From positions 1 through 64,000 of the forward strand of contig NZ_JAPCID010000041.1 of NCBI RefSeq assembly GCF_027587175.1: DNA of 64,000 bases, given 5' to 3'. Position 1 is the first letter of the stretch; each line of letters opens with the position of its first letter. This document shows, in pieces, positions 1,912 to 7,493 of the stretch. The notes under the pieces were generated by a model. The model worked only from the letters and a program-made list of their open reading frames with translations. It was not told where the DNA came from and did no database searches. Origin of the DNA: Solirubrobacter deserti (lineage in GTDB: Bacteria > Actinomycetota > Thermoleophilia > Solirubrobacterales > Solirubrobacteraceae). Made by a program: the position numbers and the translations under genes.

Positions 1912-2337
1912 ATGCGTCGCCTCCGCGCCGAAGAGGGCTACTCGCTCGTCGAACTGATGGTCGTCGTGCTGATCGTCGGCGTGCTCGCCGCCGTCGCCGT
2001 GCCGACCCTGCTCGGCCAGCGGGCCAAGGCGCAGGACACGGGCGCGAAGGCCGCGACCGTCACGGCGGCCAAGGCGGCGATCGCCTTCGGCACCGACCGC
2101 GGCGGCTTCGAGGACGCCACGCCGGAGGACCTCGCGCGGGTCGAGAAGTCGCTCGCCGACGCCCGCGGCCTGCGGGTCGAGGGCGCGAGCCGCACGTTCA
2201 CGGTCAGCGTGGACTCGGCCAGCGGCACCACGTTCTCGATCGCGCGCGCCGAGGGCGGCGAGATCACGCGCGACTGCACCCCCGCGGGCAGCGGCGGCTG
2301 CCGCGAGACGGCGGACGCGCGCGGCAACCGTTGGTGA
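1912..2337 (+). CDS. Type IV pilin-like protein (minor pilin)
   Basis: This 141-residue prepilin has a short charged leader (MRRLRAEEG), then Y-S-L-V-E at the cleavage site with the conserved Glu5, and the hydrophobic helix LMVVVLIVGVLAAVAVPTLL. PilD would cut after the Gly and methylate the new N-terminus. The soluble domain ends in C...GGC...W, matching the C-terminus of the major pilin at 6965, so the two are paralogues. It opens the pilus locus and is followed by the PilV-, PilW- and PilX-like genes. Confidence 0.85.
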   Translation: MRRLRAEEGYSLVELMVVVLIVGVLAAVAVPTLLGQRAKAQDTGAKAATVTAAKAAIAFGTDRGGFEDATPEDLARVEKSLADARGLRVEGASRTFTVSVDSASGTTFSIARAEGGEITRDCTPAGSGGCRETADARGNRW

Positions 2338-2363
2338 GGCGTCCGGGCCAGACCCCATCCCAC

Positions 2364-2391
2364 TCAACCCGCGTGGCGGAGCGGCCGATGA
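2364..2391 (+). promoter_or_regulatory. FliA/WhiG-like promoter for the PilV-like gene
   Basis: TCAA at 2364-2367, 16 bases, then GCCGATGA at 2384-2391. An in-frame ATG at 2388 lies inside the -10 element, while the ATG at 2400 is 8 bases after it. The promoter therefore selects 2400 as the start if transcription begins as at the sister sites. Confidence 0.55.
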
Positions 2392-2399
2392 AGGACGTG

Positions 2400-3950
2400 A
2401 TGAACCACGCTCGCCACCAGGACGGCTTCGCCCTCATCGAGGTGATCGTCTCCGCCGCGGTGCTCGCGGTGCTCGCGCTCGCGGTGCTGTCGGGCCTGGA
2501 CGGCGCCGGCCACGCCAGCGCGCGCGAACGTGCCCGCGCGCAGGCCTCGGCGCTCGCCGAACAGGATCAGGAGCGGCTGCGCTCGATCAACTTCGAATCG
2601 CTGGTCGACGGCAAGGTGCCGCAGACCGGCGCGGTCAAGGTCGCCGACGACAAGGCCAGCTACACGGTCACGTCCGAGGTGCAGTGGATCACCGATGACG
2701 ACACCGGCGTGCCGGCGTGCGGCGACAAGTCCTACCGGGCGACGGAGTACGCGAAGCTGATCTCGACGGTCACGTCGAACATCGTCGGCGTGCGCATGAA
2801 GCCGGTGCGCGTGGAGTCGATGATGGCCACGCGGGCCTCGCGCGCCGCCAGCACCGGCACGCTGACCGTGCGCGTGAAGGCCGGGCGTCCGGAGCGGGTC
2901 GCGAACCTGACGGTCCGGGCGACGCACGCCACCACCAACGCCGTCGTCACGGCGCAGACCAATGCCAAGGGCTGCGCGCTGTTCCGCTCGATCCCGATCG
3001 GCGAGTACACGGTCTCGCTCAACACGTCCGGCTACGTCGACGATCGGGCGAGCCAGTACACCGAGACGAAGGCGACCGTCAGCCCGAGCACGGTGACCCC
3101 GACGTCGCTGATCTACGACCGCTCGGTGAACATGAGCGTCGACATCAAGACGATCAAACCGGGCGCGACCTTCTCCACGACCACCGCGAGCCGGCCCTCG
3201 AAGGCCGACAGCGTCGCCGACAACGCCGCCTCCGCCGGCTCGCTGCGCGCCTACGCGCCCAGCGCCGGCGGGTTCACGAGCAACATCAAGCCGACCGGCC
3301 TGTTCCCGTTCGAGTCCTCGTACGCGTTCTTCGCCGGCGCCTGCGTCTACCAGAGCCCGACCAAGGCGAACCCGACGCTCAACCAGAACTACTTCGAGAC
3401 CACGAACCCGGCCGCGGTCGTCAAGGGAGACCCGGCGGCGTTCCAGCCGCAGAGCGCGACGGTCTACCAGCCCGCCCTGAACCTGCGCGTGCGCGCCGGC
3501 TCGTCGACGAACACGCCGCCGGCGACCTTCGACGCCGCCGCGAGCCAGCTCGAGCTCAAGCTGACGCTGCCGGCCCCGAGCGGCGACAGCTGCACCGACA
3601 TCACGAACATGACGATGCGGCTGGCGTCGTGGCCGACCGCCGTCTGGGGCGAGCAACCGACCACGCCCGCGGGCATGACGGCGACGGGCTACGTCTGGCA
3701 GCCCAGCGCCACCGGCGAGTTCGACCCGGGGATGCCGTTCGGCGTCTACCGCCTCTGCCTGCGCGACGGCGCGACCAGCCCCTCCCGCTGGTGGGCCAAC
3801 GGCACCGCCTCCGCGCCGGTCGCGCCGACCTACGACAACACGAACCCGAGCGGCCGCGCCGACACGATGGAGATCCCGCCGCGCACCACCGGCACGGGCT
3901 CGAGCACCGTCGCGCCGCTCTGGACCACGACCCGGCCGGCGGGCTGCTGA
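2400..3950 (+). CDS. PilV-like minor pilin with carboxypeptidase-regulatory-like domain
   Basis: The product (516 residues from ATG 2400) has a prepilin leader MNHARHQDG, then F-A-L-I-E and a hydrophobic helix rich in Val/Leu/Ala. Around residues 155-215 lies a beta-sandwich resembling carboxypeptidase-regulatory-like/SpaA domains (LTVRVKAGRPERVANLTVRA, later IPIGEYTVSLNTSGY). The rest is Thr/Ser/Pro-rich with several Cys, as in exposed adhesin tips. It is far larger than an ordinary PilV. The stop overlaps the next ATG (TGATG). An alternative ATG at 2388 would lengthen the leader by four residues but lies inside the predicted -10 box. Confidence 0.75.
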   Translation: MNHARHQDGFALIEVIVSAAVLAVLALAVLSGLDGAGHASARERARAQASALAEQDQERLRSINFESLVDGKVPQTGAVKVADDKASYTVTSEVQWITDDDTGVPACGDKSYRATEYAKLISTVTSNIVGVRMKPVRVESMMATRASRAASTGTLTVRVKAGRPERVANLTVRATHATTNAVVTAQTNAKGCALFRSIPIGEYTVSLNTSGYVDDRASQYTETKATVSPSTVTPTSLIYDRSVNMSVDIKTIKPGATFSTTTASRPSKADSVADNAASAGSLRAYAPSAGGFTSNIKPTGLFPFESSYAFFAGACVYQSPTKANPTLNQNYFETTNPAAVVKGDPAAFQPQSATVYQPALNLRVRAGSSTNTPPATFDAAASQLELKLTLPAPSGDSCTDITNMTMRLASWPTAVWGEQPTTPAGMTATGYVWQPSATGEFDPGMPFGVYRLCLRDGATSPSRWWANGTASAPVAPTYDNTNPSGRADTMEIPPRTTGTGSSTVAPLWTTTRPAGC

Positions 3951-4708
3951 TGCGCCGCCTGCGCACCGAGGAACGCGGCTTCACGCTCATCGAGGTGCTG
4001 ACCGCGATGACGATCGGTCTGATCGTCTCGTTCGCGGTCTTCTCGCTGGTGGAGGTCGTCATGCGCCGCTCGGCCGACATCAGTACGCGCGTCGACACGA
4101 CTCAGCGCGCCCGCACGGCCATGGACCAGATCACGCGCCAGCTGCGCTCGCAGGTGTGCACGCAGCGCGCCGGTGCGGCGGAGGGCCGCACGATCGACGC
4201 CGCCTCGCCGACGTCGATCTCCGTCTACGCCGACTTCAGCGACGAGACGCTCAACACCAGCGGCCAGCTACCGGCACCGGACCTGCGCAAGATCGCCTTC
4301 GACCCGGTCACGCGGGCGCTCACCGAAACGGTGACCAAGGGCACGCGTGACTCGGTCGGCTACGTCGTCTACGGCACCGCCGGCACCACGCGGCGGATCC
4401 TGGGCAACGTCGCCGCGACGTACTTCGCCGACGCGCCGGCCAACACGCTGCCGGTCGTCTTCCGCTACTTCCGGTATCCGAACACCACCGCGACGCTCAA
4501 GGAGCCGACCGAGGAGATCGCGCCCCTGCAGAACCGCGCACTCACGGCGGACGAGCTCAACGACGTCGCGCGGATCGAGATCAGCTACCGCGCACTCAAC
4601 AACCGCGGCCAGCGCGCGGGCTCCACCGTGCTCGAGAACAGCGTCTACGTGCGCACCTTCACCCCGAACAACCCCGACCAGGTGAACCCGCAATGCAAGG
4701 CCTACTAG
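3950..4708 (+). CDS. PilW-like prepilin
   Basis: This 252-residue prepilin has leader MRRLRTEERG, cleavage motif G/FTLIEV with Glu5, and an N-terminal hydrophobic helix followed by an amphipathic segment (RRSADISTRVDTTQRARTAM) typical of PilW/PulJ-like minor pilins. The C-terminal half has the beta-rich character of this group. It is translationally coupled to the PilV-like gene (TGATG) and overlaps the next gene by 16 bases. Its likely role is in the priming complex at the pilus tip. Confidence 0.8.
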   Translation: MRRLRTEERGFTLIEVLTAMTIGLIVSFAVFSLVEVVMRRSADISTRVDTTQRARTAMDQITRQLRSQVCTQRAGAAEGRTIDAASPTSISVYADFSDETLNTSGQLPAPDLRKIAFDPVTRALTETVTKGTRDSVGYVVYGTAGTTRRILGNVAATYFADAPANTLPVVFRYFRYPNTTATLKEPTEEIAPLQNRALTADELNDVARIEISYRALNNRGQRAGSTVLENSVYVRTFTPNNPDQVNPQCKAY

Positions 4709-6336
4709 GACGTATCGACAGCCGGGCCGAGCACGGCTTCTCCATGATCCTGACGGTCATGGCGATGTTCATCATCTCGATGTTCGTCGCCGCGTCGTAC
4801 GTGGCCGTCACGGGTGACATGCGGCTCTCGGCGATCGCCCAAGACCGCAAGGCCTCGCAGTCCGGCGCCGAGGCCGGTGCCGACTACTACCTGAACCGGC
4901 TGCGTCAGGACCCGGATTTCTGGACCAAGTGCGACACGCTCGGCCCGCTGGACTCCACGGACCCGACCAAGAACCCGATCAACCAGCTGTGGGACGGCGA
5001 GGGCCCGGACCCGCGCGTGTGGCGCTCGCTCCCGAACAGCTCGGAGGAGTACACGATCGAGCTGATCCCGGCCGCCGGCTACGACGAGTGCATCCCGAAC
5101 AAGCAGGAGTCGTTCATCGATCTCGAGACCGGGACGTTCCGGATCAAGATCACGGCTCGCTCGCGCAAGGGCGACCCGCGCCCGCGGACGCTGATCGTCA
5201 CCTACGCGCGTGACTCGTTCCTGAACTACATCTACTTCACGGACTACGAGAACCTCGATCCCGCGGCCTTCGCGAGCGCCACCGACCGGGCCAAGCAGAC
5301 CACCAACTGCGCCAACCGCTACCGCTCGGCGCGTGCGGGCAAGGGCTGCGCCGAGATCCAGTTCGCGACCGGCGACTCCATCAACGGCCCGTTGCACACC
5401 AACGACGAGAACCTCTTCATCTGCGGCTCGCCGGTGTTCGGCCGCACGAAGAACCAGGACGGCTCGAGCCGGGCGACGCTGACCGACACCGTCGAGGTGT
5501 CCGGCCCGCCCGAGGGTTACGTGGCCAACCCGAACGGCAGCGGCTGCGCGAACACCCCGGTCATCCAGACCGCCGGTGGCCAGCGCAAGTTCGTCACCCG
5601 CGCGAAGCGGCTGATGCTGCCGTCCTCGAACTCGGAGCTGGCGACCTATGCGGCCAACAGCGGCAACCTCTACACGGGCGTGACGTCGATCCGCCTGCGC
5701 GGCACGGTCATGGACGTCACCAACAACGGGACCACGACGACCAAGACATGGCCGACCAACGGCGTGCTCTACGTCAAGAACGGCAACTCGTGCGAGCCGG
5801 AGTTCCCGACCGCGGCCGACTACAACGAGCCGGCCAGTTGCGGCAACGTCTACGTGAGCGGGACCTACTCGCGGCCGCTGACGATCGCCGCGGCCAACGA
5901 CGTGATCATCCGCCCGACGTCGTCCACCTCGCCGACGGACGCGAACATCACCCAGGTCGGGACCGACAGCGCGACCCTCGGGCTGATCGCCAACAACTTC
6001 GTGCGCGTCTCGCATCGCGTGGCCTCGGACTGCAAGTCCAACCTGTCCCCGGTGCTGAACAACGTGACGATCGAGGCCGCGATCCTCGCCCTGCAGCACT
6101 CGTTCATCGTCGACAACCACAACTGCGGCCCGGCGCTGAGCAAGCTGACCGTCAACGGAGCGATCGTGCAGAAGTACCGCGGTCCGGTGGGCACCGGCTC
6201 GGGCGCGAGCATCGCCACGGGCTACGCCAAGAACTACTGGTACGACGACCGGTTCCGGTTCCGCAGTCCGCCGTACTTCCTCGTGCCGGACGAGTCGGCC
6301 TGGAACCCCGTGCGCACGCACGAGGTCGTCGGGTAG
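4693..6336 (+). CDS. PilX-like pilus assembly protein
   Basis: The 547-residue protein has a short N-terminus ending H-G-F-S-M, then a transmembrane helix (ILTVMAMFIISMFVAASYV) and the segment ASQSGAEAGADYYLNRL. This matches the PilX N-terminal pattern, in which the prepilin Glu5 is absent. The remaining ~450 residues are exported, Asn/Thr/Ser-rich and contain scattered Cys. It is the last gene of the minor-pilin set; its stop abuts the stop of a gene on the other strand without a gap. Confidence 0.72.
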   Translation: MQGLLGRIDSRAEHGFSMILTVMAMFIISMFVAASYVAVTGDMRLSAIAQDRKASQSGAEAGADYYLNRLRQDPDFWTKCDTLGPLDSTDPTKNPINQLWDGEGPDPRVWRSLPNSSEEYTIELIPAAGYDECIPNKQESFIDLETGTFRIKITARSRKGDPRPRTLIVTYARDSFLNYIYFTDYENLDPAAFASATDRAKQTTNCANRYRSARAGKGCAEIQFATGDSINGPLHTNDENLFICGSPVFGRTKNQDGSSRATLTDTVEVSGPPEGYVANPNGSGCANTPVIQTAGGQRKFVTRAKRLMLPSSNSELATYAANSGNLYTGVTSIRLRGTVMDVTNNGTTTTKTWPTNGVLYVKNGNSCEPEFPTAADYNEPASCGNVYVSGTYSRPLTIAAANDVIIRPTSSTSPTDANITQVGTDSATLGLIANNFVRVSHRVASDCKSNLSPVLNNVTIEAAILALQHSFIVDNHNCGPALSKLTVNGAIVQKYRGPVGTGSGASIATGYAKNYWYDDRFRFRSPPYFLVPDESAWNPVRTHEVVG

Positions 6337-6729
6337 CTAACGGATCGTCAGGGTGCCGATCTGCCGCTCGTCGTCGACGAGCAGCGGGTAGGTGCCCGGC
6401 GTCTCCGCCATCAGCGTGAAGCGGGCCGGCAGGCCGGTCTCGAAGACGTCGGACTGAAGGCCGGTGAGCGCGACGCGCCCCGGCCCTTCGCCTTCTACGA
6501 CGATCTCCACGTCGTCGCCGAGCGTGGCCTCGATGGTCTGGGGGCTCGCGTCGCCGTCGGCCGAGAGCGTCGCCGTGACGTCGAACTCGTCGGGGTCGGA
6601 GAGCAGCGCGCCCGGCGTGGAGGAGGGCCCCGCAGTGCCGCGTTGGGCCGTCCGCGGCGGCGACACGGTGACCACGAGGACCATCAGACCCACGATCGCG
6701 AGCACCAGGAGCGTCATCCGTCGGGTCAT
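6337..6729 (-). CDS. Small membrane-anchored or secreted protein, cupredoxin-like fold possible
   Basis: About 130 residues. An N-terminal hydrophobic helix (MTLLVLAIVGLMVLVVTVSP) serves as signal or anchor, followed by a Ser/Pro/Gly linker and an ~80-residue beta-rich domain. The ending (FTLMAETPGTYPLLVDDERQ) resembles the closing strands of EfeO/cupredoxin-like domains, but no copper-ligand set is present. The start is GTG 6732 or ATG 6729; I use the ATG. It lies opposite to the pilus genes and may be unrelated to them. Confidence 0.6.
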   Translation of the reverse strand: MTRRMTLLVLAIVGLMVLVVTVSPPRTAQRGTAGPSSTPGALLSDPDEFDVTATLSADGDASPQTIEATLGDDVEIVVEGEGPGRVALTGLQSDVFETGLPARFTLMAETPGTYPLLVDDERQIGTLTIR

Positions 6730-6754
6730 CACCCCATGTGAGGTTAGACGGGGG

Positions 6755-6782
6755 TAAAGCTGCTCGCACGGGGTGCCGATAC
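6755..6782 (+). promoter_or_regulatory. FliA/WhiG-like promoter for the major pilin transcript
   Basis: TAAA at 6755-6758, 16 bases, then GCCGATAC at 6775-6782. The predicted transcription start near 6789-6790 lies just upstream of helix P1 of the c-di-GMP riboswitch. This is the only one of the seven sites that makes a long leader. Confidence 0.62.
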
Positions 6783-6796
6783 AGGGACTAGCCAGA

Positions 6797-6889
6797 CCGA
6801 GGTGTCAAAAGGCAAATCGCCCGCGAGGGCGAGACGCAAAGCCATCGGGGCTCCAGCGGATCTGGAGTCGGCCGGGCTGCCACTTCCGG
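6797..6889 (+). promoter_or_regulatory. c-di-GMP-I (GEMM-I) riboswitch aptamer
   Basis: Class-I hallmarks occur in order. GGCAAA is at 6811-6816. Hairpin P2 pairs 6818-6822 with 6827-6831 and is closed by the GNRA tetraloop GCGA. The core GACGCAAAGCC is at 6833-6843, and hairpin P3 pairs CTCCAG 6851-6856 with CTGGAG 6862-6867. Helix P1 pairs 6797-6804 with 6881-6889, with one G-U pair and one bulge. The aptamer lies 75 bases before the pilin ATG in the same orientation. Binding of cyclic di-GMP would set pilin output; the sign of the effect is not visible. Confidence 0.87.
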
Positions 6890-6941
6890 CAGAACGGGAC
6901 CGAGGACCTGGCAAGACACAACCGCCTTACAGGCCCAACGA

Positions 6942-6956
6942 TCCCTTCAGGAGGGA
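6942..6956 (+). promoter_or_regulatory. Hairpin covering the pilin ribosome binding site
   Basis: TCCCT (6942-6946) pairs with AGGGA (6952-6956) across a 5-base loop, hiding most of the strong Shine-Dalgarno sequence AGGAGGG (6949-6955). The ATG is at 6965. It is the only obvious expression-platform element between aptamer and start codon, and no U-rich terminator is present. Translational control is therefore the likely output. Confidence 0.5.
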
Positions 6957-6964
6957 CATCCCAC

Positions 6965-7438: not shown

Positions 7439-7464
7439 CGAAGCGGGCCCTCGGGCCCGCTTCG
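7439..7464 (+). terminator. Intrinsic terminator after the major pilin gene
   Basis: An 11-bp GC-rich stem (7439-7449 with 7454-7464) with tetraloop CTCG is followed by TTCGTTT. It lies 28 bases after the pilin stop and isolates this unit from pilM. Confidence 0.85.
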
Positions 7465-7493
7465 TTCGTTTAAGCGCTCGGGTCCAGGCTGTA

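Follow-up and report, generated by a model that had tools for sequence, protein, structure and literature searches.

How many signals does the leader of a type IV pilin gene in Solirubrobacter deserti answer to? The gene lies in what we call the window, the whole 64,000-nucleotide (nt) stretch at positions 1 to 64,000 of the forward strand of contig NZ_JAPCID010000041.1 (assembly GCF_027587175.1). The original prediction placed a class-I cyclic di-GMP (c-di-GMP) riboswitch behind a sigma-28-like promoter ahead of this gene and gave the pilin two input signals. We found that the aptamer is real and belongs to RF01051 and that the promoter is real as a sequence; genes for WhiG and RsiG, together with ~50 GGDEF matches, are present in the genome, and aptamer and promoter are associated across the class Thermoleophilia. 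Our reading, to which we give a probability of about 0.72, is that the pilin gene would be gated twice by c-di-GMP, at initiation through RsiG and WhiG and again through the leader aptamer. The parts of the prediction are supported, but its separate signals are not: the inputs are most likely a single signal, c-di-GMP, sensed twice in series, because in relatives c-di-GMP arms RsiG, the anti-sigma factor of the likely sigma factor, WhiG (PMC8325347).

The covariance search with cmscan matched the leader to RF01051 (c-di-GMP-I/GEMM-I) over the full model (1–87) with 57.5 bits (E 1.2e-8), where the gathering score is 35 bits. All of the predicted aptamer parts were located, namely the P2 loop GCGA, a GNRA tetraloop (6823–6826), the cores GGCAAA (6811–6816) and GACGCAAAGCC (6833–6843), and the closing P1 helix, whose pairs change compensatorily among orthologues. 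The ligand-contact bases, whose roles are discussed elsewhere (PMC9262584, PMC6274999), are also retained: G20 at 6811, A47 at 6838 and C92 at 6880 in Vc2 numbering. We mapped these positions by counting, together with the P2 pairs in the structure line of Rfam, which places position 20 on the G that opens GGCAAA. Because all three are retained, c-di-GMP is the expected ligand. GEMM-I aptamers of the Ib type, which sense 3',3'-cyclic GMP-AMP (cGAMP), are known in Geobacter, also ahead of pilus genes (PMC8835794, PMC9262584), but the cGAMP type has A at position 20 (PMC6274999), and with G at 6811 we rejected this specificity as very improbable. G20 was likewise found in all 144 aptamers gathered by core pattern, a pattern that itself demanded that G. 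Two aptamers elsewhere in the class (L153, G429:C86; L167, G431:C24) carry A instead of G at this position, as the cGAMP type does. For some aptamers behind a WhiG-type site (L063, L066, L059, L071, L072, L076), the variant model RF03167 (c-di-GMP-I-GGC) outscores RF01051.

The predicted sigma-28-like promoter was recovered as an exact TAAA-N16-GCCGATAC at 6755–6782, which agrees with the WhiG/sigma-28 pattern TAAA-N15/16-GCCGATA(A). The 7.55 Mb genome contains just six exact TAAA-N14–17-GCCGATA sites, whereas the reversed pattern, used as a control, does not occur at all. In promoter-bearing pilin loci of the order, 34–49 nt separate the -10 element from the GGCAAA core. Two sigma factors of the genome exceed the FliA_WhiG cut-off. 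One is a WhiG orthologue (L007), which scores 294 bits against 6pfj_A, the WhiG chain from S. venezuelae, and 287 bits against TIGR02479, while the other is a FliA-like sigma factor encoded among flagellar genes (L008) that is more distant from WhiG (172 bits to 6pfj_A). WhiG is likely to be the sigma factor of this promoter, judging by these protein matches, and it was found above the cut-off in 11 of 12 genomes examined with the same arrangement or of the same genus, the twelfth being a contig-limited fragment. The genome also encodes an 86-amino-acid, single-motif RsiG (L027), with 43–46 bits to the solved RsiG chains (6pfj, 7lq2-4). In Rubrobacter, RsiG armed with c-di-GMP holds WhiG, and this switch controls type IV pili (PMC8325347).

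The pairing of aptamer and promoter had been thought unusual, as had a class-I aptamer in an actinobacterium, and the wider count supported neither view. Of the genomes sampled, 152 of 396 in the phylum Actinomycetota and 163 of 398 in the class have an aptamer above the cut-off. We then counted TAAA/GCCGATA sites in the 120 nt upstream of the best-scoring aptamers of each search, the 127 from the class not having been selected by promoter. A WhiG-type site with at most two mismatches precedes 64 of the 127 class GEMM-I aptamers, and 36 remain when no more than one mismatch is allowed; the opposite strand gave 4 and 0, respectively, and shuffling of a slightly larger set (n = 142) gave ~7 and 0.6. 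The thiamine pyrophosphate (TPP) riboswitches of the class have no such site (0/28). At the clearest sites the spacers are nearly all 15 or 16 nt long, and in other classes of the phylum a site was observed before 22 of 27 aptamers.

From these sequences we infer ligand binding, the use of WhiG and the action of RsiG, which would be linked as follows. WhiG would initiate the transcript at TAAA-N16-GCCGATAC; at high c-di-GMP, the single-motif RsiG would dimerise around the ligand and hold WhiG, and no pilin mRNA would be made. Any transcript would open with one strand of a putative helix, which we call P0, followed by the class-I aptamer. Ligand binding would close P1 and, via P0 and the hairpin bearing the Shine-Dalgarno (SD) sequence, alter translation of the pilin.

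The leader parts that could carry this second layer are more numerous than predicted. The hairpin around the pilin SD, UCCCUU/GAGGGA, is present as described, and double changes were observed at 5/6 of its pairs in orthologues, although the arms for this test were picked from predicted folds, which favours pairing. It had been taken as the sole platform element; P0 and an alternative hairpin, CUGCC/GGCAG, are also candidates. Of 17 pilin leaders, 15 have the 5' strand GCCAG at a fixed distance of ~20 nt ahead of the core, where 1.6 would be expected, against 7/114 non-pilin leaders. Its complement CTGGC lies between aptamer and SD in 12 of the 17 (0.7 expected), against 13/114 in non-pilin leaders. 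Together, they imply a long-range helix in pilin leaders that has not been described. Since the P0 core is nearly invariant, covariation support for it is thin (one clear compensatory change and differing extensions), and it is possible that the two are conserved sequence motifs rather than a helix. The anti-SD arm is an alternative partner for the P0 3' strand, in a pairing that beats shuffles over 15 leaders (Stouffer z -3.7; control strand +0.6) and is strong in relatives, not in the window or its own genus.

No U-run or terminator lies between the aptamer and the ATG. A transcription-terminator platform was rejected on this ground, and for the same reason a translational platform is assumed, in agreement with the prediction of one around the SD. 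Were the ligand to close P1 and P0, the anti-SD arm would be freed and translation would go OFF. We lean slightly towards this sign, which the competing pairing weakly favours. If the ligand acts as OFF, both layers agree, so that low c-di-GMP would mean pilin on, with existing mRNA shut off fast as the messenger rises. If it acts as ON, the result would be a band-pass, with pilin made only at intermediate c-di-GMP.

Several observations weigh against double gating by c-di-GMP. In Solirubrobacter, the CUGCC/GGCAG hairpin and P1 are mutually exclusive, which complicates the platform picture. Constraint folding with ViennaRNA gave the same SD accessibility with P1 closed as with P1 open in nearly all leaders, as would suit an aptamer that is an inactive relic or a mere mRNA stabiliser, binding its ligand without effect on translation. 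We consider such a relic improbable, given that the core, P1 and ligand bases are retained in orthologues whose pilins are 51–72% identical, and that aptamer and promoter are absent together in the Svornostia lineage. At the first layer, RsiG has His at the Gln position of the motif E(X)3S(X)2R(X)3Q(X)3D, and for this reason a search with the exact motif as a DNA pattern returned nothing useful. The FliA-like sigma factor, encoded beside fliD-like and other flagellar genes and outside RsiG control, could also use this promoter; of the six exact promoter sites, one precedes flagellar rod genes (L023). The inputs would then be independent, a flagellar hierarchy and a c-di-GMP riboswitch, which is close to the original prediction. 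We regard this as unlikely, since five genomes that have the whole pilin arrangement contain no sigma factor over the FliA_WhiG cut-off other than WhiG, and GEMM-I co-occurs with RsiG (present in 149 of the 163 class genomes that carry the aptamer and in 155 of the 235 that lack it, with list overlap counted by hand). About half of the class GEMM-I aptamers are without a clear promoter of WhiG type. The p-values for the RsiG association (1e-9) and for GEMM-I against TPP riboswitches (5e-8) are too small, because related genomes are not independent, and are indicative only.

Each component of the proposed circuit is already known, and what we regard as new is their arrangement in series and the fact that it recurs throughout the lineage. 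To our knowledge, no c-di-GMP-responsive sigma/anti-sigma pair acts on the same promoter as a riboswitch in Clostridioides difficile. The riboswitches of that species resemble this one in placing c-di-GMP aptamers on surface-appendage and motility genes (PMC11139211, PMC11477304). The Rubrobacter system shares a single-motif RsiG, WhiG and TAAA/GCCGATAA promoters in a type IV pilus cluster; here, in contrast, a c-di-GMP aptamer follows the promoter, and a riboswitch is mentioned 0 times in that report (PMC8325347). The Geobacter metallireducens riboswitch before pilM also has a GEMM-I-type aptamer ahead of type IV pilus genes but differs in its cGAMP ligand, its transcription terminator platform and its action as an ON switch (PMC9262584). 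With RF01051 and RF03167 themselves, the leader shares the full-length match over cut-off, the conserved core, P1-P2-P3 and the ligand-contact bases, whereas the pilin leaders of the order add the conserved P0 outside P1 and the covarying SD hairpin, and transcription is predicted to start at a WhiG-type promoter. A review that covers both c-di-GMP receptors treats the RsiG-type protein and the riboswitch separately. By title and abstract, no relevant report of WhiG/FliA-riboswitch coupling or of a Thermoleophilia riboswitch was found in the open-access literature, where an unseen report is possible.

Usual second-messenger circuits have one receptor per gene, while here a protein and an RNA receptor of one molecule appear to act one after the other on the same transcripts. 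This arrangement recurs in a large section of the Actinomycetota that has been little studied. Extended to Thermoleophilia and other Actinomycetota, a c-di-GMP riboswitch regulon would be nested in the WhiG regulon, with one messenger setting both initiation (RsiG) and leader output of the same genes as a double lock or band-pass, and in pilin leaders the new P0 strand would choose between the RNA 5' end and the anti-SD arm; we hold this joint picture to be a little better than an even bet. It makes testable whether serial c-di-GMP sensing sharpens and speeds up the switch (both OFF) or restricts output to a concentration window (initiation OFF, translation ON). The promoter-plus-aptamer signature could also list c-di-GMP target genes in unculturable organisms.

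Table 1. Features of the pilin locus in window coordinates.
Feature	Position	Strand	Basis or remark
-35 element TAAA of WhiG/sigma-28-type promoter	6755–6758	+	exact match; also exact in Solirubrobacter soli (L059)
-10 element GCCGATAC	6775–6782	+	sequence; predicted start site ~6786–6789
P0 5' strand GCCAG, predicted transcript 5' end	6791–6795	+	15/17 pilin leaders
P1 5' strand GAGGUG	6799–6804	+	pairs with 6881–6886; compensatory variation
c-di-GMP-I (GEMM-I) aptamer	6801–6884	+	RF01051, 57.5 bits
Alternative hairpin CUGCC-ACUUCC-GGCAG	6877–6892	+	ligand-free minimum-energy fold; kept in L058, L059
P1 3' strand CACUUC	6881–6886	+	sequence, compensatory variation
Candidate anti-anti-SD GAACGGGA	6892–6899	+	could pair with UCCCUUC 6942–6948; sequence, weak statistical support
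P0 3' strand CUGGC	6908–6912	+	12/17 pilin leaders; in relatives can pair with anti-SD arm instead
SD hairpin: anti-SD UCCCUU (6942–6947), loop CAG, SD arm GAGGGA (6951–6956); SD AGGAGGG 6949–6955	6942–6956	+	folds, covariation
Type IV pilin gene, 148 amino acids	6965–7411	+	PF07963, PF16732
Terminator-like hairpin CGAAGCGGGCCC/GGGCCCGCTTCG, then TTCGTTT	7439–7471	+	by eye; not among consensus scan results

The target of the leader is a pilin, as predicted: the product carries the N-methylation motif PF07963 and also matches PF16732, and the gene adjoins pilM, a prepilin peptidase gene and pilN. All three follow the terminator-like hairpin, and the pilin transcript is probably monocistronic. 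Upstream, a gene run at 1912–6336 includes at least two genes with a pilin-type N-terminal methylation motif (minor pilin-like), and a small opposite-strand gene (6337–6732) lies between this run and the pilin. A search for pilin homologues found five loci, two of them without a riboswitch. The same leader was observed in Solirubrobacter soli and S. phytolaccae (pilins 67–72% identical) and in one metagenome-assembled genome (MAG; 51%). The aptamer is present in all three, and the promoter is exact in S. soli, with one or two changes in S. phytolaccae and the MAG. In Svornostia abyssi and a related MAG, both promoter and aptamer are absent.

This genome holds six GEMM-I aptamers, and the others identified precede secreted proteins, including a subtilase and a CAP-domain protein. 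At one locus of the survey (L072), two class-I aptamers (376–453 and 1551–1628) precede two similar secreted-protein genes ~1.2 kb apart. In a second aptamer group of the class (e.g., L099, L100, L107, L175, L196), the WhiG-type site lies ~90 nt ahead of the core. Its -10 element, at -80 to -95 from the core, is GCCGATTA-like, the intervening leader is longer, and the genes that follow are again mostly pilin-like. Finally, two exact WhiG-type sites (L021, G000:C1:1024427; L024, G000:C390:739346) are followed within ~10–15 nt by near-identical terminator-like hairpins (gaccgcccNccgaggcggtttt), which suggests very short transcripts or attenuated promoters.
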